Of a stretch of 64,000 nucleotides of DNA, positions 6,959 through 17,349 are shown piece after piece. The first letter of the stretch is position 1. Every line of letters begins with the position of its first letter. A program made the translations under genes and the position numbers. Source of the stretch: Chitinophaga lutea (GTDB lineage Bacteria > Bacteroidota > Bacteroidia > Chitinophagales > Chitinophagaceae); NCBI RefSeq assembly GCF_003813775.1, contig NZ_RPDH01000001.1, positions 2,852,001 to 2,916,000 of the forward strand, given 5' to 3'. The notes beneath the pieces are model-generated. The model was given only the letters and a program-made list of their open reading frames with translations, ran no database searches and was not told where the DNA came from.

Positions 6959-9319
6959 ATGAAGATATTAACTGCACACCCGCGTATGTTCAAGGAGGAT
7001 GAGCTGATCGACAGCCATATCTCGTTCGTGCCCTTTATCCGTTTCATGAAGGAAAAAGCAGCGCATGCCGAAGGCGCCCGCGCAGCCTACTTCCAGGAAA
7101 TCGTGCGCCACTTCGAGAGCAATCCGGCCTTGCAGCAGCCGCTCCGGGAAGACATCGACATCGCCAACTATCAGGAATACCTCGACCTGCTGACCGCGAC
7201 GGTTTTTCCCATCACCATGGACGAAAGCCGCGATATATTCGGCATCGGCGTACCGTACCGCTTCGCCATATTTTACTATTCGGAACGTTTCCGCCAGATT
7301 TTCTCGGAAGACGGCGGGGAGCTGAAAGCCGTACCCAAAGGCATTTCGGAAGAAAAGGTGAAGAACGACAAACTCACCTGGATGTACAAACTCATCCTGG
7401 AACGGATGTACAACCTGCCAGTGCACTACGATGCGGAAATCATCCATAACATCATCAACCCGGAAACGGGCCTGCATAAATACATCAAGCTCAACATCGA
7501 CCCGCGGTTCGTGGATGTGAAGGTGAAAGGCGAACTGCCGCCGCTCAACTGCGACAATATCTGCGTGGGCGATTTCAAACTGCAGAGTCTCGCCGACCTG
7601 CGGAAACTGCTGCCGCTGGAAAACTTCGCCCTCGAGGGTTTTGTGATCTGGACGATTCAGGACGTGACGAAGGAACATGTAGTGGCCGGGATGAAAAACC
7701 TCGTGCTCAACATCCGGAAAGACAATGAGCTGAAAACATACGCCCACGCGCGGGAATACCTGAAAACGCTGGCCGGCCGCGCAGACATGAGCGTGCATCT
7801 GACGCCGTTCCTGAAGGTGAACAACCGCAATGTGATGGAGAATGTATATGTGTCTCAAAGCATCATCTTCTCCAGCGCACGTAACGAAGCGGAACGCATC
7901 GCCATCAACGAACAGCTGCTGGAGTACCTGTCCACCCACCGACAGCCCCTGGTGATACAGGACGTGAACCGCCAGACGGTGGCGCTGTACCCCTTCCTGA
8001 AATACCTGCCGCTGCAGGGCGTCAAAAGTTTTATCCTGTTGCCCGTGGTGCATGGCAATAACCTGCTGGGCATACTGGAACTGGCCACCAACGGCGGCGA
8101 GCCGCTCGACTGGGACATCCTCGGCCGCCTGCAGCCCAGCTATGCGGTGGGTACCATGCTGCTGGGCCGCAGTATGGAACTGGCCAACGAACGCATCAAC
8201 GAAGTGATCAAGGAACAGTTTACTGCCCTGCAACCCGCCGTGGAATGGAAATTCACGGAAGCTGCCTGGGAATACCTGCATGCGCCGAAAGAAAATAAAA
8301 AGGCGATCGCGCACATCCAGTTCGAAGACGTATACCCGCTGTACGGCGCGGTCGACATCCGGAACTCTTCCGTGGAAAGAGGCTCCGCCATCCGCGACGA
8401 CCTCCGGGAGCAACTGCTGCTCATCCAGGAAACCTTCAGTCATATCAACGGCGACCTGCATCTTCCGCTGCTCGAAGAACTGCAGTATAAAAACAACCGC
8501 ATGCTCAACAACATGCGTGAAACGCTCTTTGCAGAAGACGAAGTACGGATCAACGAGTTCCTCGACTATGAAATCGCACCTACTTTCAGGCACCTCTATG
8601 AAAGCGAAGAACGCCTGAAGCCGGCGCTGAACGACTATTTCGAAAAAATCGACAAAACGAGCGGCCATATCTATCATCACCGCCGCGAGTATGAAGAGAG
8701 CCTGCAGGACATCAACAGCGCCATCAACCGTTACCTAGACAAGGAAAAGGACGAGCTGCAACGGTCGTTCCCCTGTTATTTCGAGAAATACAGGACGGAC
8801 GGGGTGGAGTATAACATTTACATCGGTCAGTCCATCGCCCCGGACAAAAAATTCGATATGATCTACCTGCGCAACGTGCGCCTGTGGCAATTGTCGTCTA
8901 TGGCGCAGATTGCCCGCATCACGCACGCGCTGGAACCCAAGCTGCGCATACCGTTGCAAACCACGCAGCTGGTGCTGGCCCACAGCAACCCCATCGCCAT
9001 CAGTTTCCGGAAAGACGAAAGGCGTTTTGATGTGGAAGGGGCATACAACATCCGTTACGAAATCATGAAAAAACGTATCGACAAAGTGCGTGTGCGCGGT
9101 ACGAATGAAAGGCTCACGCAGCCCGGTAAAATCGCCATCGTGTACGCTTATGTGCGCGAAGCGGATGAGTACAAAAAATATATCGAGTTCCTGCAGAACA
9201 AAAACATGCTCATGCCCGAACTCGAAATGCTCGACCTGGAAGATGTGCAGGGCATCAGCGGCCTCCGCGCCATGCGGGTGACCGTGAACATGGAAGGCCT
9301 GGTGAAAACGGAAGCGTAA
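6959..9319 (+). CDS. Large GAF-domain protein, function unknown
   Basis: 786 residues, soluble, without signal peptide or membrane segment. A GAF-like domain can be seen around 290-410, with a strand pattern ending in FILLPVVHGNNLLGILELAT. The N-terminal ~250 residues (DEPxxIFGIGVPYRFAIFYYS-like region near 95-110) and the ~350-residue C-terminal half are not recognised. The C-terminal half begins with AHIQFEDVYPLYGAVDIRNSS near 440, then long helices with many charged residues (~480-600), then a mixed alpha/beta part to the end. The VDIRNSS segment recalls the start of adenylyl-cyclase-like or metal-dependent domains, but no catalytic set is clear. Possibly a cytoplasmic sensor with a Bacteroidota-specific output. 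The gene stands alone with its own promoter box. Confidence 0.75.
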   Translation: MKILTAHPRMFKEDELIDSHISFVPFIRFMKEKAAHAEGARAAYFQEIVRHFESNPALQQPLREDIDIANYQEYLDLLTATVFPITMDESRDIFGIGVPYRFAIFYYSERFRQIFSEDGGELKAVPKGISEEKVKNDKLTWMYKLILERMYNLPVHYDAEIIHNIINPETGLHKYIKLNIDPRFVDVKVKGELPPLNCDNICVGDFKLQSLADLRKLLPLENFALEGFVIWTIQDVTKEHVVAGMKNLVLNIRKDNELKTYAHAREYLKTLAGRADMSVHLTPFLKVNNRNVMENVYVSQSIIFSSARNEAERIAINEQLLEYLSTHRQPLVIQDVNRQTVALYPFLKYLPLQGVKSFILLPVVHGNNLLGILELATNGGEPLDWDILGRLQPSYAVGTMLLGRSMELANERINEVIKEQFTALQPAVEWKFTEAAWEYLHAPKENKKAIAHIQFEDVYPLYGAVDIRNSSVERGSAIRDDLREQLLLIQETFSHINGDLHLPLLEELQYKNNRMLNNMRETLFAEDEVRINEFLDYEIAPTFRHLYESEERLKPALNDYFEKIDKTSGHIYHHRREYEESLQDINSAINRYLDKEKDELQRSFPCYFEKYRTDGVEYNIYIGQSIAPDKKFDMIYLRNVRLWQLSSMAQIARITHALEPKLRIPLQTTQLVLAHSNPIAISFRKDERRFDVEGAYNIRYEIMKKRIDKVRVRGTNERLTQPGKIAIVYAYVREADEYKKYIEFLQNKNMLMPELEMLDLEDVQGISGLRAMRVTVNMEGLVKTEA

Positions 9320-9513: not shown

Positions 9514-12500
9514 TCAGAATTTAAACCCGAACGTTACGTACGGCAGGGTGCCTTCACGCGAATGCCCCAGCATGGCCGTTACAATGAACATGTTGATGGG
9601 AGAGAGGTAGAGGCCGCCTCCGAAACCATTGTGCCACTGCCCGGACTTTTCTTCCTTCACCCATACGCGGCCCACGTCGTTAAACGCGATGAGGCCTACA
9701 GAGCCCGGAATGATATAGGACGTGAAGTCGAACAGTTTGATCCGGAGCTCCAGGTTGTTGTACAGCATGCTGGTGCCGCTGAAACGGTTGTTGCGGAAAC
9801 CGCGCAGGTTGGAGGAACCGCCCAGCGAGAGGGCCTGGAAGAACTCCGGTTTGCCCCAGGTTGTGCCGCCGCCGAAACGGGCTACGAACACCACGTTGGG
9901 CGGCAGGCCCAGCGAAGCGTAAATGCTCATGTCGGAGCGCAGCTGCGCGTAGTTGTTGCTGGCGCCGTTCAGCCCTTTGTTCCCCTGGATGGTAGTGGTC
10001 CACAGCAATCCGCGGGTGGCCACAAGATCATTGTCGCGCGTGTCGATATTGAAACCGAGCCGCAGGCCCGCATGCAATTTGTTGGCGAACAGCTGCGCGG
10101 AATCGAGCTTGTTGAGGTCATAGTTGGTGAGGTAGCGGCCCGCATTGTCTTCCGCATTGAGCGTGACCGCGGTGATCGACGGCGTGATGGTGCCGCTGAT
10201 GTTCTGGGCGAGGTTGGTCCGCAGCGACACTTCGCCCATATAAATATTGAACCGGCCGCGGTAGTACCGTATAGCGGGATCCGTTATTTCCTTGTCGTAT
10301 GACGTTTCGTTACCGAAACCGAAGAAGTTGGCGGTGTTGTGCGGTGCGCGTATCAACGCGCCGATCAGCAGGTCCGAGCGGCCGATCACATCGTTGAACT
10401 GGCCCTGGTACTTGAACTGGTAAGCCTGGGTGGCCACCGCGTGCATCCCGGAAATGACGTGCTTCACGGCGAACGAATCTTTCCGGAAGCCGTGGCCTTT
10501 GTATTGCAGGCCCAGGCCCAGCAGCAGGCCATCGTCGAGGTTATAGCCGCCGGCGATGAGGGGTTGCAGGATGTTGTATTGGAAGGCCTTCCGGTTGTAG
10601 TGGATCACCGCCGGGTCGGACGACAGGCGCAGGCGCTCGTTGCTGTTCACGGCAAAACTGTCCGGCCCCTTGGCGAGGTCGTAGATCATGGTGCGTTTGC
10701 CGCTCCTGCGGGCGCTGCTGTCGATATACGTATCCTTTTCACGGCCGCCGATGAGGCGGATGCGGATGGGGCTGCCTTCGTTGCCGCGGAGAACGAACCG
10801 GTCTTCGCCGCCGAGGCCGTAAATTGCCACCTCTTTGGTATGCGCCGGGTTGAAGGTCCTGTTGTACAGCGTTTGTTCCAGCTCTCCCTTTTTGCTGATC
10901 TTCTGCGAGGTCACGTTCACAAAACCATCGGGCTGGCGGGTGATGGTGAACTGTTCGTTTTTGACGGACCCCGTTACGTCCACGCCCTTGGCGAGAAAGC
11001 GGTAGTATTTCAGCGCTTCTTTTTGGAGGATGCCCCTTCTGGCTTTCAGCGTACGGATCATCATACTGTCTACCTGCTTGCGGATGGCAGGCTGCAGCTG
11101 GTTTACCGCCGATACGATGAGCGTGTCGGTCATCAGCACGGTCATGTTTTTCGACATTCTCTCCCAGGTGGAGTCTTCCAGGCCGTTGAGCATATTCCGG
11201 TCGAGGAAGCGGGGGTTGAAGTTCCATCCGCCGATGTCGGGGATTTTGGTGCGGAAGCCCTGCACTGCCGGGAATATGTACCGTTTTGCGGCGAGGCGGG
11301 GAATAACGCCCTGGTTCACGAAAAACGCCTGGTCGCGGTCGCGGGGGATGGGATAAAATTCCTTGGCCTTTTTATCTTTTTCCGCATACCAGCGCCACTG
11401 GTCTTCGTGGCGGTCCCAGTCCGCCATAAAGATATCGAGCAGGCGGGCCTGCAGGTAAGCGCGCTGGTTCACGCTGTTGTCGTTATCGGAAGCAAGGTCT
11501 TCCAGTACCTTGAGCGTATTGTATGTTTTGCTGGCCGTTACCGGTTCCCTTTCTTCAAAGAGGTACACGCCATCCGCAAAGTCTTTCCGGTAAATACCCA
11601 GCGCGGTATCGTTAGGCAGGTATACGAAGCGGGGATTGGTATGGGGCACGCCGGCAGCTTCGGCCAGGGGCGCCACCACCAGCGGGGCGTAGGGGTTGGC
11701 GGCGGATATCTGGTCCTGCACCACTTCACGGGCGAAGGTTTCACGGAGGGCTTCGGGCACGGCGCTGAGCGGATCCTTTTTGAGGGAGCGCAGCACCCAT
11801 TCGCGGCCGCTTTTATCTTCCAGCCGCAGGGAGCGCGTTTGTTTGCCGCCGCCACGTTTGAGGATTTTCAGGGTATCCAGTTCCATCACCGGGAAGGTAA
11901 GGGCCGTGGCCCAAACGGAGCGGTAGTTGCGGCCGAGCATCAGGCGGTGAAAACCATTCACGTCTGCATACTGCGAATCCGCGGCAACGGTCACGAGTTT
12001 CGGGAACGCGGTGGCCGCGATGGCTTCCTCGCGCCGGTGGTACGCCGCCAGATCGAGCAGCTCGCTGGTGTAGAGAGGCGCAGCATCGTGGTCGTTATAA
12101 AAGCGGGCATATATTTTCCCGTTCTTCAGCACTTCCAGCACCGTATAACCGTTGACGGAGGTGGCGAAGAGAGAGTTCCTGCCTTTTTTGACCTGGTTGT
12201 CTTTCGCGCCGGCGCCGCTCACGATGAAGTTGCGGTTGCCTTCGCGGATGAGCTGCAGCGTATGGTCGTGGCCGGACACGAACACCACGGGCGCATCGCC
12301 CGGGATGGCGGTTTCTATGCCTTTGATCATCCGGCGGTAGAGCGGGTGCGGCATGTCTTCCCGTGTGCCGAACACACCGCGCACCAGCGGGTAAACGGAG
12401 CCGATCACGGGCAGCGGCACATAGAGGTACGGTTTGGCGTCGGTTAAGGGGAAGATGTGTTTTTTGAAGGTATAATATCCGCCATGTGGACCGTGGCTAC

Positions 12501-13146
12501 GCAGCGGATGATGCCCGGCGAACACCAGCAGTTTGGTAGGGTTGCGGGCCGCAATGTCGGCAATGGCCGTGAGCACCTCGTCCTCCGTTTTGCAGTCGCA
12601 GCCCGATTCGATGCCCGGCTTTTTACCGGGGTACAGCCACCATTCGGTGTCCATGATCACCAGCAGCACGTTGTCGCCGAGGGCTACGGTTTCCGGGCCC
12701 GGGCAGCCGGACTTCGGCAGGAACTGCACGTTGGGCAGCTGCATCGAATCGATGTACAACTGTTGCTGCATGACCGTGCGCCAGCCTTCCGGGCGGTGTT
12801 TCGACCAGTCGTGGTTGCCAGGCACGAAGATGCCTTCCGCTTTGGTGCCTTTCACGAGGCTCACCTGGTAGTCGAGGATGCTTTCCTTTTCCCGCCGGTT
12901 CTTCGCGGCGGGGTCGGGCAACCCCAGCGGGTATACGTTGTCGCCCAGGTAAAGCACGGTATTTTTCCCCCGCTGCAGGTCGATGTTCCTTTTGACGGCA
13001 TCGATGACGGGGATTTTACCATTGTGCATTTCCCCCGCGTCGCCGATGAGGATGATGCGTTGCTGTATGCTGTCTGCCGACTGAGCATGCGCGCCTGCTG
13101 CCGTCAGCAGGAAAAGGGTGATCAATACGTATAGCCTGGTGTGCAT
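9514..13146 (-). CDS. Outer-membrane fusion protein: calcineurin-like phosphoesterase, kinase-like middle region, BamA/TamA-type barrel
   Basis: 1210 residues with a signal peptide (to ~21). The N-terminal metallophosphoesterase has all the motifs: GDAG (35-38), LGDN (67-70), GNHDW (110-114), GHHP (211-214) and GHDH (292-295), closest in style to tartrate-resistant acid phosphatases. Residues ~440-630 contain LDIFMADWDRHEDQW (D578-R579-H580) and IPRDRDQAF (600-608). These look like the catalytic and metal-binding loops of HipA/Fam20/PI3K-type atypical kinases; that assignment is my inference. Residues ~850-1210 form a beta-strand-rich Omp85 surface-antigen domain with GGSSNLRGFRNNRFSG and a terminal aromatic (FKF). 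The protein should sit in the outer membrane with the enzyme domains in the periplasm. It begins two bases after the stop of the upstream lipoprotein gene. Confidence 0.85.
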   Translation of the reverse strand: MHTRLYVLITLFLLTAAGAHAQSADSIQQRIILIGDAGEMHNGKIPVIDAVKRNIDLQRGKNTVLYLGDNVYPLGLPDPAAKNRREKESILDYQVSLVKGTKAEGIFVPGNHDWSKHRPEGWRTVMQQQLYIDSMQLPNVQFLPKSGCPGPETVALGDNVLLVIMDTEWWLYPGKKPGIESGCDCKTEDEVLTAIADIAARNPTKLLVFAGHHPLRSHGPHGGYYTFKKHIFPLTDAKPYLYVPLPVIGSVYPLVRGVFGTREDMPHPLYRRMIKGIETAIPGDAPVVFVSGHDHTLQLIREGNRNFIVSGAGAKDNQVKKGRNSLFATSVNGYTVLEVLKNGKIYARFYNDHDAAPLYTSELLDLAAYHRREEAIAATAFPKLVTVAADSQYADVNGFHRLMLGRNYRSVWATALTFPVMELDTLKILKRGGGKQTRSLRLEDKSGREWVLRSLKKDPLSAVPEALRETFAREVVQDQISAANPYAPLVVAPLAEAAGVPHTNPRFVYLPNDTALGIYRKDFADGVYLFEEREPVTASKTYNTLKVLEDLASDNDNSVNQRAYLQARLLDIFMADWDRHEDQWRWYAEKDKKAKEFYPIPRDRDQAFFVNQGVIPRLAAKRYIFPAVQGFRTKIPDIGGWNFNPRFLDRNMLNGLEDSTWERMSKNMTVLMTDTLIVSAVNQLQPAIRKQVDSMMIRTLKARRGILQKEALKYYRFLAKGVDVTGSVKNEQFTITRQPDGFVNVTSQKISKKGELEQTLYNRTFNPAHTKEVAIYGLGGEDRFVLRGNEGSPIRIRLIGGREKDTYIDSSARRSGKRTMIYDLAKGPDSFAVNSNERLRLSSDPAVIHYNRKAFQYNILQPLIAGGYNLDDGLLLGLGLQYKGHGFRKDSFAVKHVISGMHAVATQAYQFKYQGQFNDVIGRSDLLIGALIRAPHNTANFFGFGNETSYDKEITDPAIRYYRGRFNIYMGEVSLRTNLAQNISGTITPSITAVTLNAEDNAGRYLTNYDLNKLDSAQLFANKLHAGLRLGFNIDTRDNDLVATRGLLWTTTIQGNKGLNGASNNYAQLRSDMSIYASLGLPPNVVFVARFGGGTTWGKPEFFQALSLGGSSNLRGFRNNRFSGTSMLYNNLELRIKLFDFTSYIIPGSVGLIAFNDVGRVWVKEEKSGQWHNGFGGGLYLSPINMFIVTAMLGHSREGTLPYVTFGFKF

Positions 13147-13148
13147 AG

Positions 13149-14006
13149 TTATTTGGTGTGCGGATGGTACTTAAATTTGAGGATATCGGCGGTGTTTTCC
13201 TCGTCTCCTTCGTTTGAAATATACATGTCGCCGTTAGGCGCAAAGGTAATGCCTTCCGGTTGTGAAAAATGTTTCCGCGGCAGGGGATGCGCTTCCAGGA
13301 CTTTGCCGGAGAGGTCGGTAATGACGAGCAGGCGGTTGATGGAAGCCACGATGTACACCCGGTTTTCGAGGGGGTGCACGGCGGCGGCGGAAGGCCGGAA
13401 GTGTTTGGAGGGCGATTCTTTCAGCCCGGGAATGTCCCTGTTCTCGAAACGGAAGGCGGCTGCGGAATCGTACCGCAGGCTGTCCATCCGGAAAGCATAC
13501 ACGCTGGTGGCTTTCTCGCCTTTATCTTCCTCGCAGTTTTTACAGATAATGAAGGTGGTGTTTTTGCCGGCATCGTAATAGGCCGCTTCGAATTCCCGTT
13601 TGCCGGGCACCGGGAAATGGAAGGCTTCGGAGTCCGTAGAGTCGGTGAAAAGACCGGCCACCTTATACATGGTGCCGTTGCTTTTCAGCACCAGCCAGTC
13701 GTTTCCCGCATGCACCACTTCTTCATAGTCGCCTCCTTTGCCGAATTTCCAGGAAGGGTAGGGATCGGTCGTGCGCAGGCCTACCTGGAAGAGTTTGCCC
13801 TGCTCGTCGTTATTGGCGATGAAGTTGGATTCGTCGCCGTTATACACGAGGCCGGAGATTTCCTGGAGCGACTCACGGACTTTAAAACGCTCCGGCTTTG
13901 AGAGCTCGTATCCTTGCGGGGAGGTGGCTCCTTTTTCCTGTTTTTCCCCGACCATCTGGCAGGAGAAGAACAGCAACAGCAGGGCGTAATACTTAATAAG
14001 CTTCAT
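13149..14006 (-). CDS. SdiA-regulated-type beta-propeller lipoprotein
   Basis: 285 residues. A short signal peptide ends in a lipobox (LLFFSC, Cys about 16). The body shows the SdiA-regulated/esterase-like propeller pattern: LQEISGLVYNGDESNFIANNDEQGKLF-type blade near 47, KHFRPSAAAVHPLENRVYIVAS near 205 and KHFSQPEGITFAPNGDMYISNEG near 250. Such proteins are predicted six-bladed propellers with unknown ligands. It is the first gene of a two-gene minus-strand operon with the phosphoesterase-barrel fusion, so it may work at the outer membrane with that protein. Divergent from the HD-PycTM operon across 82 bases. Confidence 0.78.
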   Translation of the reverse strand: MKLIKYYALLLLFFSCQMVGEKQEKGATSPQGYELSKPERFKVRESLQEISGLVYNGDESNFIANNDEQGKLFQVGLRTTDPYPSWKFGKGGDYEEVVHAGNDWLVLKSNGTMYKVAGLFTDSTDSEAFHFPVPGKREFEAAYYDAGKNTTFIICKNCEEDKGEKATSVYAFRMDSLRYDSAAAFRFENRDIPGLKESPSKHFRPSAAAVHPLENRVYIVASINRLLVITDLSGKVLEAHPLPRKHFSQPEGITFAPNGDMYISNEGDEENTADILKFKYHPHTK

Positions 14007-14088: not shown

Positions 14089-15354
14089 ATGGAAATTAGT
14101 TCAGTGATTGCCGCCGCGCAGCTTTATGTAACCCAACAGTTTGATCAGCATACCGAGCCTGTACTGGTATATCATAACAAGGCGCATACGCTGCAGGTGG
14201 TACATGCGGCGGAACAGATCACCGCGCATTACCGGTTGCCTGAGCAGGAATTGCTCGTGGTGATGATCGCCGTATGGTTTCATGATATGGGGTATTTATT
14301 GGGAGAGCGTCAGCATCACGAGCAGGCCGGCGCCGATGCCGCACGGGCCTTCGCACTGTCGCAGGGCCTGCCAGAAGCCACCGCACAACAGATAGCAGGC
14401 TGCATACTGGCCACCAAAATGCCGCAGGCGCCGCAGAACCTGCTGGAGCAGATCGTTTGCGACGCCGATCTTTTTCACCTGGGCACCAAGGAATTTTCAA
14501 AGCGCAACAAACTCCTCCGCGCCGAAACCGAACTGGCCACCGGCAGTAAAATATCGGGGGCCGACTGGGCGAAGTCGAGCATACAGTTCCTCGAATCGCA
14601 TAAATATCACACCGCTTACAGCCAGACGCTGCTGAAGCAGCAGAAAGAAGAGAACCTGGAAAAGCTCCGCACCAAGCTCGAGGAAAAACAGAGCGAAGCG
14701 CTGCGCGAGCAGGAGAAAGAGCGGGAGAAAGAAAAGAAACAGCTCAAAGCGGCCGAGAAACAGTTTGAGAAGGTGCATGAAAAAGAACTGAAAGGGGAAA
14801 AGGGGGAAAAGGACAAACGCTCCAGCCGAGGCGTGGAAACCATGTTCCGCACCACTTCCACCAATCACATCCGCCTGAGCTCCATGGCCGATTCCAAGGC
14901 CAATATCATGATATCGGTGAACGCCATCATCATTTCCGTATTGCTCTCCGTGCTGCTTCGCAAGCTGGAAGACTACCCGCAGTTCATCCTGCCCGCCATC
15001 CTCTTCCTGACCACGAGCGTCACCACCATCGTGTTTGCCGTGCTGGCCACGCGCCCGAATGTGACGAGCGGCCGTTTCACCGACCTCGACATCCGCAGCA
15101 AAAAATCGAACCTGCTCTTTTTCGGGAACTTCCACCAGATGACTTACCAGGAATACGAAGACGGGATGGAAACGATCATGGGGAACGGGGAGTATCTTTA
15201 CAGCAATATGATACACGACATCTACAACCTGGGCGTGGTGCTGGGGCGCAAATACAGGCTGCTCCGCTTCGCTTACAATACATTTATGTTCGGGCTCATC
15301 GCTTCGGTGCTGGCATTTACGATTGCAGCTTTGTTTTTTTCGTCAAAAGGATAG
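14089..15354 (+). CDS. HD-domain phosphohydrolase fused to a PycTM (DUF5706-type) membrane domain
   Basis: 421 residues in three parts. Residues ~10-150 are an HD domain: H33 in YHNKAHT, HD at 65-66 in WFHDMGY, HHE at 76-78 and a late Asp in VCDADLFH, giving a plausible metal site for phosphodiesterase or phosphohydrolase activity. Residues ~180-250 are a highly charged Glu/Lys coiled coil. Residues ~255-421 match the Pycsar-effector type transmembrane domain: the motif RLSSMADSKANIMISVNAIIIS, two helices (~273-290, 298-320), then a final helix (~395-417). In Pycsar defence a cyclic-nucleotide-bound PycTM protein damages the membrane. No nucleotide cyclase lies nearby, so a housekeeping or toxin-regulating role is equally possible. 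First gene of a four-gene operon; ppk1 starts 12 bases after its stop. Confidence 0.85.
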   Translation: MEISSVIAAAQLYVTQQFDQHTEPVLVYHNKAHTLQVVHAAEQITAHYRLPEQELLVVMIAVWFHDMGYLLGERQHHEQAGADAARAFALSQGLPEATAQQIAGCILATKMPQAPQNLLEQIVCDADLFHLGTKEFSKRNKLLRAETELATGSKISGADWAKSSIQFLESHKYHTAYSQTLLKQQKEENLEKLRTKLEEKQSEALREQEKEREKEKKQLKAAEKQFEKVHEKELKGEKGEKDKRSSRGVETMFRTTSTNHIRLSSMADSKANIMISVNAIIISVLLSVLLRKLEDYPQFILPAILFLTTSVTTIVFAVLATRPNVTSGRFTDLDIRSKKSNLLFFGNFHQMTYQEYEDGMETIMGNGEYLYSNMIHDIYNLGVVLGRKYRLLRFAYNTFMFGLIASVLAFTIAALFFSSKG

Positions 15355-15366
15355 GATTTGTACAAG

Positions 15367-17349
15367 ATGGATACATCACTGAACGACAGGGACCTGAGCT
15401 GGCTTTCTTTCAACGGCCGTGTGCTGATGATGGCGGGCGATGAGGCAGTGCCTTTATTCGAACGCGTTCGTTTTCTCTCGATTTTTTCTTCGAACCTCGA
15501 CGAGTTTTTCAGGGTGCGCATGCCCGCTTTGATGGCGCTGCACCAGCTCGAAGAGGCCAATACCAGCGTATTGCCGCAGGCGCAGGCCGAAATCGGCCGG
15601 CAGTTGAACCTGTATGGCAGCATGCTGAAAAATGTATTGCAGGCGCTGCAGCAGAAGGGCATTCACCTTCATTATGGCACGCCGCTGCCGCCCGAAGCGG
15701 CCGTGCAGGACTATTTCCACAGCACGGTGATGGGCCTGCTGCATCCCGTGGTACTGCAACTGCACACCCCGGCGGAAACCTTCCTCGAAAACAACGCCCT
15801 CTACCTCATAGCCGGTTTTGAAGACGGGGGCATGGGCATGGTCAACATCCCTTCCGGTATCTTACCCCGTTTCCTGAAACTCTCCGGCGGCGGCATCGCC
15901 TTCCTCGATGATGTGGTGCGCGCGCACCTGGACCTCGTGTTTCCCGGGAGATCAGTGCAGGGTGCATACAGCATCAAGCTGACCCGCGATGCAGAAATCG
16001 ATGTGGACGAATTCAGCGGCACGCTGCTGCAGAAGGTGGAGAACATGCTCATCAAGCGCGACCTGGGGTTGCCGACGAGGTTTCTGTACGATGCGGCCAT
16101 GCCGGAACACCTGCAGGCCGCGCTGGCGAAATACTTCCGGATAGCCCCGCAGGAAATGGTGGCCGGCGGAAGGTACCATCATCTCCGCGACCTGGCCGAC
16201 ATGCCGCTGCCCTCCAAAGACCCGTCGCTCTTTTACCCGCCCATGCCGCCCGCCCGCGTGAAGCCGCTGGATGGCGAAAAAGGTCTGCTCGACACCGTGC
16301 TGGAGCAGGACGTGGTGCTGCATGTGCCCTACCAGAATTATGATTACATCCTCCGGTATTTCAACGAGGCCGCCCTCGACCCGGATGTCAAAGAAATATA
16401 TGTGACTCTCTACCGCGTGGCGTCCGGCTCGCAGATCGTGCATGCCCTTATCAGCGCGGCCCGCAACGGCAAGCAGGTAACGGTGATGGTGGAACTGAAA
16501 GCGCGGTTCGACGAAGCGAATAATGTACGCTGGGCCAAACGGATGAAGGAAGCCGGCATCAAAATACTCTACAGCATCCCCAACCTGAAGGTGCACGCGA
16601 AAGTGGCGCTGGTCAAAAGGCAGCGCGGCAACACCTGGGATTATGTGGGCCTGATGGCTACCGGCAATTTCAACGAAAGCACCGCCCGTTTTTATACCGA
16701 TCATGTGCTGCTCACGGCGCATAAGGAAATGACGCAGGAACTGGAGTTGCTGTTCCTCTATATGCAAACCGGCATCGCCCCTGCCCGCTACAATTTTATT
16801 CCCTTCAATCATTTACTGGTAGCGCAGTTCAACCTGATGGACCGGTTCCTGGGCATGATCGCCCGCGAGGCGGAACATGCCCGTGCCGGCCGGAAGGCGC
16901 GCATCGTCATCAAGCTCAACAACCTGCAGGAAAAGGAAATGATCGCCGCACTGTACGCCGCCGTGGAAGCAGGCGTGGAGGTGGTGCTGATCATACGCAG
17001 TATCTGCTGCATTGTGCCGCAGCCAGGCATTACGGTGCGGAGGATCGTAGACCGCTACCTCGAGCACGCGCGGATATTTTATTTTCAGAACAACGGAAAC
17101 GAAGAGATATATATGGGCAGTGCGGACTGGATGAACCGCAACCTGCACCGCCGGATAGAAGTGTGTTTCCCCATTTACGACAAAACGTATTTCCGGCAGC
17201 TGAAAGATATTCTGGACATTCAGCTGGCGGATAACACAAATGCCGTAATATTGGACAGGCAAATCAATAATGTGCCGGTGGAAAAACCGACCGGCGAACC
17301 CGGGGTGAATGCACAGCGGGCCATTTCCGCTTACGTGCACAACCTGTAA
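15367..17349 (+). CDS. ppk1: Polyphosphate kinase 1
   Basis: 660 residues from the ATG at 15367 (MDTSLNDRDLSWLSFN, the usual PPK1 N terminus; a TTG three codons earlier is less likely). It makes inorganic polyphosphate reversibly from ATP. Domains in order: N-terminal helical domain, head domain, and two phospholipase-D-like C domains. Visible signatures are SSNLDEFFRVRM (41-52), ELKARFDEANN (376-386), the phospho-acceptor region NLKVHAKVALV with H410, GNFNESTARFYTDH and the second-site segment RRIVDRYLEHARIFYF. It is slightly shorter than the ~690 residues of the E. coli enzyme. Cotranscribed with the HD-PycTM gene upstream and two genes downstream. Confidence 0.95.
   Translation: MDTSLNDRDLSWLSFNGRVLMMAGDEAVPLFERVRFLSIFSSNLDEFFRVRMPALMALHQLEEANTSVLPQAQAEIGRQLNLYGSMLKNVLQALQQKGIHLHYGTPLPPEAAVQDYFHSTVMGLLHPVVLQLHTPAETFLENNALYLIAGFEDGGMGMVNIPSGILPRFLKLSGGGIAFLDDVVRAHLDLVFPGRSVQGAYSIKLTRDAEIDVDEFSGTLLQKVENMLIKRDLGLPTRFLYDAAMPEHLQAALAKYFRIAPQEMVAGGRYHHLRDLADMPLPSKDPSLFYPPMPPARVKPLDGEKGLLDTVLEQDVVLHVPYQNYDYILRYFNEAALDPDVKEIYVTLYRVASGSQIVHALISAARNGKQVTVMVELKARFDEANNVRWAKRMKEAGIKILYSIPNLKVHAKVALVKRQRGNTWDYVGLMATGNFNESTARFYTDHVLLTAHKEMTQELELLFLYMQTGIAPARYNFIPFNHLLVAQFNLMDRFLGMIAREAEHARAGRKARIVIKLNNLQEKEMIAALYAAVEAGVEVVLIIRSICCIVPQPGITVRRIVDRYLEHARIFYFQNNGNEEIYMGSADWMNRNLHRRIEVCFPIYDKTYFRQLKDILDIQLADNTNAVILDRQINNVPVEKPTGEPGVNAQRAISAYVHNL

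Follow-up and report, generated by a model that had tools for sequence, protein, structure and literature searches.

What can be done by a single bacterial protein that joins a phosphatase, a kinase-like module and an outer-membrane barrel? The question is raised by a 1210-residue open reading frame (ORF) on the minus strand, at 9514-13146 of a 64,000-nucleotide stretch (the window) of the 6.6 Mb genome of Chitinophaga lutea. An earlier note, made from the sequence, had proposed that a periplasmic kinase-like module sits between a phosphatase and the barrel as a self-contained writer/eraser or a polyphosphate-handling device. The present analysis indicates that a predicted kinase-fold domain, which Pfam does not recognise, is combined in one chain with a purple-acid-phosphatase (PAP)-like phosphatase and an Omp85-type barrel, and that the resulting bacterial outer-membrane protein is a widespread one. 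The best explanation of the whole, held with somewhat better than even confidence, is an outer-membrane phosphatase and an active atypical kinase-fold domain carried on the barrel. The nearest named protein relatives are from Chitinophaga, with 85% (Chitinophaga sp.) and 72% (C. lutea) identity.

Domain organization

The protein is very likely located in the outer membrane with its soluble part in the periplasm, given its signal peptide and the topology known for Omp85 proteins. Its parts, all on the minus strand, are as follows.

9514..13146, minus: whole gene, 1210 residues; signal peptide, PAP-like domain, kinase-fold domain, beta region, Omp85 barrel
13081..13146, minus: N-terminal signal peptide, residues 1-22 (MHTRLYVLITLFLLTAAGAHAQ), without a lipobox; read from the sequence, not called by a signal-peptide program
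12097..13059, minus: metallophosphoesterase domain of the PAP type, residues 30-350
10987..11988, minus: predicted kinase-fold domain, residues 387-720
11824..11853, minus: Gly-rich loop GGGKQTRSLR, residues 432-441 (conservation and model)
11776..11799, minus: beta3 WVLRSLKK, residues 450-457 (conservation)
11389..11421, minus: putative catalytic loop DWDRHEDQWRW, residues 576-586 (conservation and model)
11323..11352, minus: PIPRDRDQAF, residues 599-608 (conservation and model)
10624..10986, minus: beta region between kinase-fold domain and barrel, residues 721-841 (full-length model)
9517..10572, minus: Omp85 barrel, residues 859-1210, 16 predicted strands, C-terminal F

The order of PAP domain, kinase fold and barrel agrees with the earlier note; in the full-length model the separate beta region lies between the kinase fold and the barrel.

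Predicted fold and putative active site of the middle domain

In the 1210-residue protein, nothing in Pfam matches between the Metallophos and barrel matches up to E=1. The predicted model of this part, which spans about 387-720 (~335 residues, and not the ~190 proposed before), has the two-lobed fold of protein kinases and PI-kinases. The evidence comes from a VIA second look and a BFVD search of the predicted model, and on this basis the middle domain almost certainly has a kinase fold. A fold unrelated to kinases, named beforehand as the outcome that would count against the kinase-like module, was not found.

The motifs that had drawn attention to this region are present, WDRHEDQW at 577-584 and PRDRDQAF at 601-608, and are conserved far above the average of the domain. 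Among 57 domains, 32 of 344 positions are invariant; nine of these fall within the 11 residues of 576-586 and four within the 5 residues of 601-605. A chance motif was ruled out because this conservation is too high. In the model, helix 175-188 leads into DWDRHEDQ, and two strands and PRDRD come next, the same succession as helix E, catalytic loop, beta7, beta8 and DFG in kinases. The Gly-rich loop is placed between strands 41-47 and 52-57, and PRDRD comes immediately after strand 208-215.

Conservation was also counted over 139 domains (in this set, as in the 160-domain and 122-gene sets below, some genes are counted twice). The Gly loop is retained at G432 (137/139), G433 (138/139) and G434 (134/139), and R453 and K457 are found in 139 and 138 domains, respectively. 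D571, D576 and D603 are present in all 139, D605 in 138, D578 in 135 and H580 in 134; Q583 occurs in 137, with Asn in the remaining two. The DRH and DRD residues are thus kept in nearly all homologues examined, and their loss, the other adverse outcome set beforehand, did not occur. D578 and Q583 are five residues apart, which is the distance in kinases between the catalytic Asp and the Asn that binds Mg (D166 and N171 in PKA, numbered as in PMC12189002). By position in the model, D578 is the candidate catalytic Asp, Q583 would stand at the Mg-binding Asn position and D603/D605 at that of the DFG Asp; R453 appears to occupy the place of the beta3 lysine.

Degeneration is seen in a few paralogues. 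L121, L122 and L123 each contain one protein with Ser at 578 and Arg at 580, and a second tandem copy in L127 keeps R453, Q583 and D603 after the joint loss of the Gly loop, D578, H580, D605 and K457. The loci L121:7433-10778, L122:7498-10854 and L123:5126-10151 encode standalone kinase-fold proteins, divergent or clustered, several with a lipobox pattern. There the degenerate member adjoins one or two intact ones, and pseudokinase/kinase pairs are possible.

Relation to known kinase families

Profile comparison with HipA, CotH and Fam20 had been suggested as a check. In a Pfam scan none of the 57 domains matched a kinase family, neither the PI3/PI4 kinase and Fam20C profiles nor HipA_C (PF07804), and CotH (PF08757) likewise matched 0 of 57 at a maximum E-value of 10, where the HMMER filters drop most matches above 0.1. 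An NCBIfam scan of the window protein gave no kinase family for the middle domain, and no precomputed Pfam domain was found on the best 120 of 1442 proteins from a search with the domain profile.

The hhalign comparison, in which 115 of 347 non-redundant rows were kept, gave a CotH score of 33.2 (P 0.0012, probability 18.9%) for the 347-row alignment, where the best of 60 column shuffles reached 23.4 and the reversed profile 18.2. With the 57-row alignment these values were P 0.047 and 1.1%. HipA scored 23.9 with 347 rows (P 0.031, probability 1.6%; reversed 14.9) and P 0.11 with 57 rows; neither link from the smaller alignment is significant. Global alignment gave P 0.19 for CotH and P 0.0052, with a probability of 2.9%, for HipA. 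A profile search of the PDB returned CtkA at E=0.0096 (profile positions 172-326), with the match lying on the DRH loop. The comparison thus yielded a CotH signal at P 0.0012, but the domain was not placed in CotH because the hhalign probability is only 18.9%. Overall, the domain looks like a remote kinase-fold family in the vicinity of CotH, PI4K-II and CtkA and a member of none of them.

The predicted model agrees with CotH in fold, and the catalytic Asp and two metal Asps are kept as in CotH phosphotransferases, for which equivalents of D166/N171/D184 are described in the accessible part of PMC12189002. In contrast, the present domain has no Pfam CotH match, its DRH catalytic loop and GGG loop are unlike those of CotH, and it is joined to a phosphatase and a barrel. 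Identity to PI4K type II, CtkA and HipA is 9-14% in most rows, again without a Pfam match. These three work in different cellular settings. Fam20C-type secretory kinases differ in that no sequence family match links them to the domain, and in that the present protein is one chain at a bacterial outer membrane.

The phosphatase and the barrel

Pfam Metallophos matches residues 30-228 with 26 bits (cut-off 21.5). The five metallophosphoesterase motifs lie within the first 300 residues, as the earlier note had said: GDAG 35-38, GDNVY 68-72, GNHDW 110-114, HHP 212-214 and GHDH 292-295. Their core (G35 D36, G68 D69 N70 Y72, G110 N111 H112 D113, H212, G292 H293 H295) is invariant in 38 of 38 aligned sequences, relatives that are 45-79% identical. 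Sequence and predicted model together show the fold, all five motifs and the GDxxY Tyr of PAPs and metallophosphoesterases; GDNVY retains the Tyr that serves as a metal ligand in PAPs. The domain resembles mammalian purple acid phosphatase (TRAP/ACP5) and differs from it in being bacterial, in being joined to other domains and in being known here from sequence and model.

The Omp85-like barrel seen earlier at the C terminus is borne out by Pfam Omp85 at 971-1173 (54.9 bits, cut-off 24), with ShlB at 1038-1179 (24.3 bits, cut-off 22.7). With a profile above the curated cut-off and a 16-strand BamA/TamA-type barrel in the model, the protein belongs to the Omp85 superfamily (PF01103). A profile of residues 722-812 from the preceding beta region matches 136 of the 139 kinase-domain ORFs. 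No POTRA was matched in Pfam, and the secondary structure of the full-length model has no POTRA-like pattern. Elsewhere in the same genome, a 1140-residue frame (L007; G000:C1:2529927-2530418) has a weak Omp85 match below the cut-off.

A 'Metallo' subfamily of Omp85 proteins, with N-terminal PF00149 and an Omp85 barrel, has been described (Heinz and Lithgow 2014, PMC4104836). In the accessible part of that paper, PF00149 is treated as a metalloprotease, 'Metallo' is conserved at genus level only and is absent from the list of POTRA-bearing subfamilies, and the words 'kinase' and 'phosph' have no occurrence in the main text. The present protein has the features of that definition: N-terminal PF00149, an Omp85 barrel and no POTRA. 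The 'Metallo' subfamily is very probably the same family, matched by its description rather than by sequences from PMC4104836. The present account differs from the published one in that the N-terminal domain is of the phosphatase type and is followed by a kinase-fold domain, and in that the kinase-fold family extends to 74 of 171 sampled genera of the phylum, whereas conservation was given there at genus level.

Distribution and evolution of the modules

Of 395 genomes sampled from the phylum, 142 carry the kinase-fold domain; none of 10 pattern matches in viral contigs was a relative. Among 139 ORFs the architectures were phosphatase-kinase-beta-barrel (69), kinase-beta-barrel (50), kinase-beta (17) and kinase only (3). 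Four ORFs, here and in the tree below, were miscounted as shorter architectures because the frames are split (L010, L023) or cut by contig ends (L049, first ORF, and L082). A lipobox pattern was present in 8 of the 17 kinase-beta ORFs; the test was a simple pattern, and 7 of 69 phosphatase-kinase-barrel and 1 of 50 kinase-barrel ORFs fit it as well. Two ~425-residue kinase-fold proteins (L119:7382-8653 and L120:7259-8536) have an N-terminal hydrophobic anchor, as read from the sequence, and no beta-region match; the former has an H+-pyrophosphatase, a SET-domain protein and a DUF5686 protein among its neighbours.

A quickly built tree of 126 domains requires nine changes of the phosphatase-kinase-barrel state, at least five of them forced by well-supported branches, indicating that the phosphatase was gained or lost repeatedly. 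In two genomes with one genus code (L125, L126), three successive genes on one strand encode a kinase lipoprotein, a metallophosphoesterase and an Omp85 barrel. The Pfam assignment of this three-gene form was done on L126, whose proteins share 39% (kinase, 429 positions), 26% (barrel, 325) and 23% (phosphatase, 362) identity with the corresponding parts of the query. L055 has a kinase-barrel gene with a metallophosphoesterase gene ahead of it on that strand. Because the modules also occur as neighbouring genes in L125, L126 and L055, these split forms support one functional unit. ABC-2 type transporter genes (two permeases and one ATPase) lie upstream of the three-gene form at L126:4647-7948.

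The two active sites have not fared equally. Among 160 domains, where an intact kinase site means that G432, G433, R453, D578, H580, D603 and D605 are present, both sites are intact in 72, the phosphatase is changed and the kinase site intact in 13, and the reverse occurs in 2, with minor kinase changes only (H580R; G432T). A further 69 have an intact kinase site and no phosphatase, and 4 have a changed kinase site and no phosphatase. Five of the 13 rows may stem from truncation or from the alignment (L097, L192, L193 and the pair L094 and L196, a single gene with a short frame); the safe cases are eight (L046, L049, L054, L056, L060, L072, L081, L186). In the alignment, all phosphatase motifs are gone from L049 and most from L072, where GD36 stays. 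The Rufibacter/Adhaeribacter group has lost phosphatase residues and kept the kinase residues. As judged from these sequences, selection keeps the kinase-fold domain, and the phosphatase is an optional module.

The self-contained writer/eraser of the earlier note is not borne out by these counts: 50 of 139 ORFs have a barrel and no phosphatase (one of them, L010, a split frame). An obligatory writer/eraser was rejected, weakened as it is because the phosphatase is often absent or degenerate.

Gene neighbourhood

The genes around the ORF are the following.

13149..14006, minus: upstream lipoprotein, 285 residues, lipobox FFSC (read from the sequence), 2 bp before the gene
14089..15354, plus: HD and PycTM membrane protein, divergent neighbour (Pfam)
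15358..17349, plus: polyphosphate kinase PPK1 (Pfam)
6959..9319, plus: 786-residue protein with a GAF match below the cut-off, convergent neighbour

Within four ORFs of the gene, 80 loci had the GAF-like 786-residue protein in 40, the propeller lipoprotein in 38, HD-PycTM in 37 and PPK1 in 20. This set favours near relatives, with many loci from Chitinophaga or Mucilaginibacter, because it is the best 80 of 550. The corresponding counts were 0, 4, 2 and 3 in 14 other loci and, scored as presence at the locus, 9, 12, 15 and 2 in 20 further loci, both sets hand-picked from the list of the genome survey. The upstream lipoprotein is by family presumably a beta-propeller: its own Pfam matches (SdiA-regulated, Phytase-like) are below cut-off, and four distant relatives are above cut-off for PF06977. 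Among 122 kinase-domain genes with a called ORF at that place, 41 have the propeller gene as their immediate upstream neighbour in the same orientation, overlapping by 4 bases in 16 cases; in the window the gap is 2 bases. The partnership proposed earlier thus gains support from context, and the lipoprotein is a likely partner or substrate presenter.

In L201 the gene is flanked on one side by HD-PycTM, a histidine-phosphatase-family protein, which we take to be SixA-like, and PPK1, and on the other by the propeller lipoprotein, a weak porin O/P match, CotH and PAP2. The neighbourhood suggests phosphate or polyphosphate metabolism, without proving a mechanism. For polyphosphate handling, also raised by the earlier note, the support comes from this gene context, and a link that goes further is unlikely.

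Proposed function and alternatives

The computations show the predicted folds of the three domains, the conserved residues, the separability of the modules and the neighbourhood; a periplasmic side, an enzymatic activity, a shared substrate and a phosphate or polyphosphate link are inferences. The soluble part would lie at the inner face of the outer membrane, with the PAP-type phosphatase first, then the atypical kinase-fold domain, and the 16-strand barrel as anchor. The phosphoryl donor would be held under the GGG loop and R453, D578 would act as the catalytic base, and Q583 with D603/D605 would hold the metal. Judging from model and conservation, the kinase-fold domain is probably an active phosphotransferase, which would phosphorylate an envelope substrate (protein, glycan or lipid), possibly presented by the propeller lipoprotein. 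The optional phosphatase, in this lineage, would probably take off the same or a related phosphate; that it acts on the kinase's own product here is possible, at less than even confidence.

Several points weigh against such an enzyme. The spread is patchy, with 253 of 395 genomes lacking a match and 5 of 14 in the organism's own family having one. The sequence tie to any named kinase family is weak, and the periplasm has no established phosphoryl donor. The catalytic roles were set by position in the model and not from superposed coordinates; the Mg-binding Asn position holds Gln in 137 of 139 domains and the beta3 Lys position holds Arg. A shared fold is no proof of phosphotransfer, the enzymatic activity stays putative, and some kinase-fold enzymes transfer AMP or glutamate instead. 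Degeneration in a few paralogues leaves room for pseudokinases among the members.

That the domain is a pseudokinase or scaffold, merely binding a ligand or partner and leaving the work to the phosphatase or barrel, is quite unlikely. The degenerate paralogues (S578/R580 in L121, L122 and L123; broad loss in the second copy of L127) and the Gln and Arg substitutions would fit it; however, about 96-100% of the 139 domains preserve the catalytic and metal residues, and decay mostly hits the phosphatase, in 13 proteins (8 safe) against 2 reverse cases with H580R or a G432 change only. Another chemistry on envelope proteins, such as AMPylation or glutamylation, appears very improbable. The kinase fold is known to host such reactions and the nucleotide-site residues are non-standard. 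Yet, like CotH and other phosphotransferases, the domain retains the catalytic Asp and the two metal Asps (PMC12189002, accessible part).

Two further readings, each of small probability, are compatible with kinase activity. Phosphatase and kinase-fold domain might scavenge phosphate or polyphosphate, handling extracellular phosphate compounds through or near the barrel and serving PPK1. PPK1 is a neighbour within four ORFs at 20 of 80 loci and at 3 of the 14 others, and in L201 the gene stands beside PPK1, the histidine-phosphatase-family protein, a weak phosphate-selective porin O/P match, CotH and PAP2. However, neighbourhood is not mechanism, PPK1 is missing from 18 of the 20 further loci viewed, and Omp85 barrels serve protein assembly or translocation, with BamA and TamA structures shut toward the outside (PMC4104836, accessible part). 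If the protein were instead an accessory assembly or translocation factor of the Omp85 kind, its soluble domains would modify or check clients; against this stand the lack of a POTRA match in Pfam or a POTRA-like pattern in the model, and the barrel-free members (17 kinase-beta and 3 kinase-only of 139, a few being cut or frame-split ORFs).

A more specific form of the phosphotransferase reading is rather unlikely as a whole: that in Bacteroidota a self-contained kinase/phosphatase pair anchored in the outer membrane reversibly phosphorylates a periplasmic envelope protein, glycan or lipid, with a donor from or related to the neighbouring polyphosphate system. If true, it would place reversible phosphorylation in the periplasm, where an ATP-driven kinase is not expected, and the fusion would record a real functional complex, because the modules also occur as three consecutive genes. 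To our knowledge, periplasmic phosphorylation by kinases has been little explored in Gram-negative bacteria. For CotH, the source of ATP is called an unanswered question in the accessible part of PMC7821199. Among the open-access papers listed for Omp85 with phosphatase, kinase or PPK, none describes the present kinase-fold domain as judged by title and the start of the abstract, which is weak evidence of absence. The domain points to a large kinase-fold family with export or anchor sequences, for which scans showed no model in Pfam (57 domains) or NCBIfam (window protein). One gene, with candidate catalytic residues D578, D603, D605 and R453, offers a direct test. Relatives with a degenerate phosphatase, without a phosphatase or with a degenerate kinase site would serve as natural controls, and the three-gene form is a natural dissection.

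Additional observations on neighbouring genes

In both L201:8589-11552 and L200:5664-8669, a weak porin O/P match, a CotH kinase and a PAP2 phosphatase stand in a row by the kinase-barrel gene, joined in L201 by PPK1 and a histidine-phosphatase-family protein; two kinase-fold families thereby share one phosphate-related locus. The HD-PycTM ('Pycsar effector') protein at 14089-15354 is found by this gene in many genomes of the phylum, sometimes next to PPK1, and its conservation looks more like that of a housekeeping protein than of a defence effector. Class III nucleotide cyclase domains occur near PPK1 and the kinase-barrel gene in L130:11612-12658 and L195:8870-10798, and are of interest because the neighbour is HD-PycTM.

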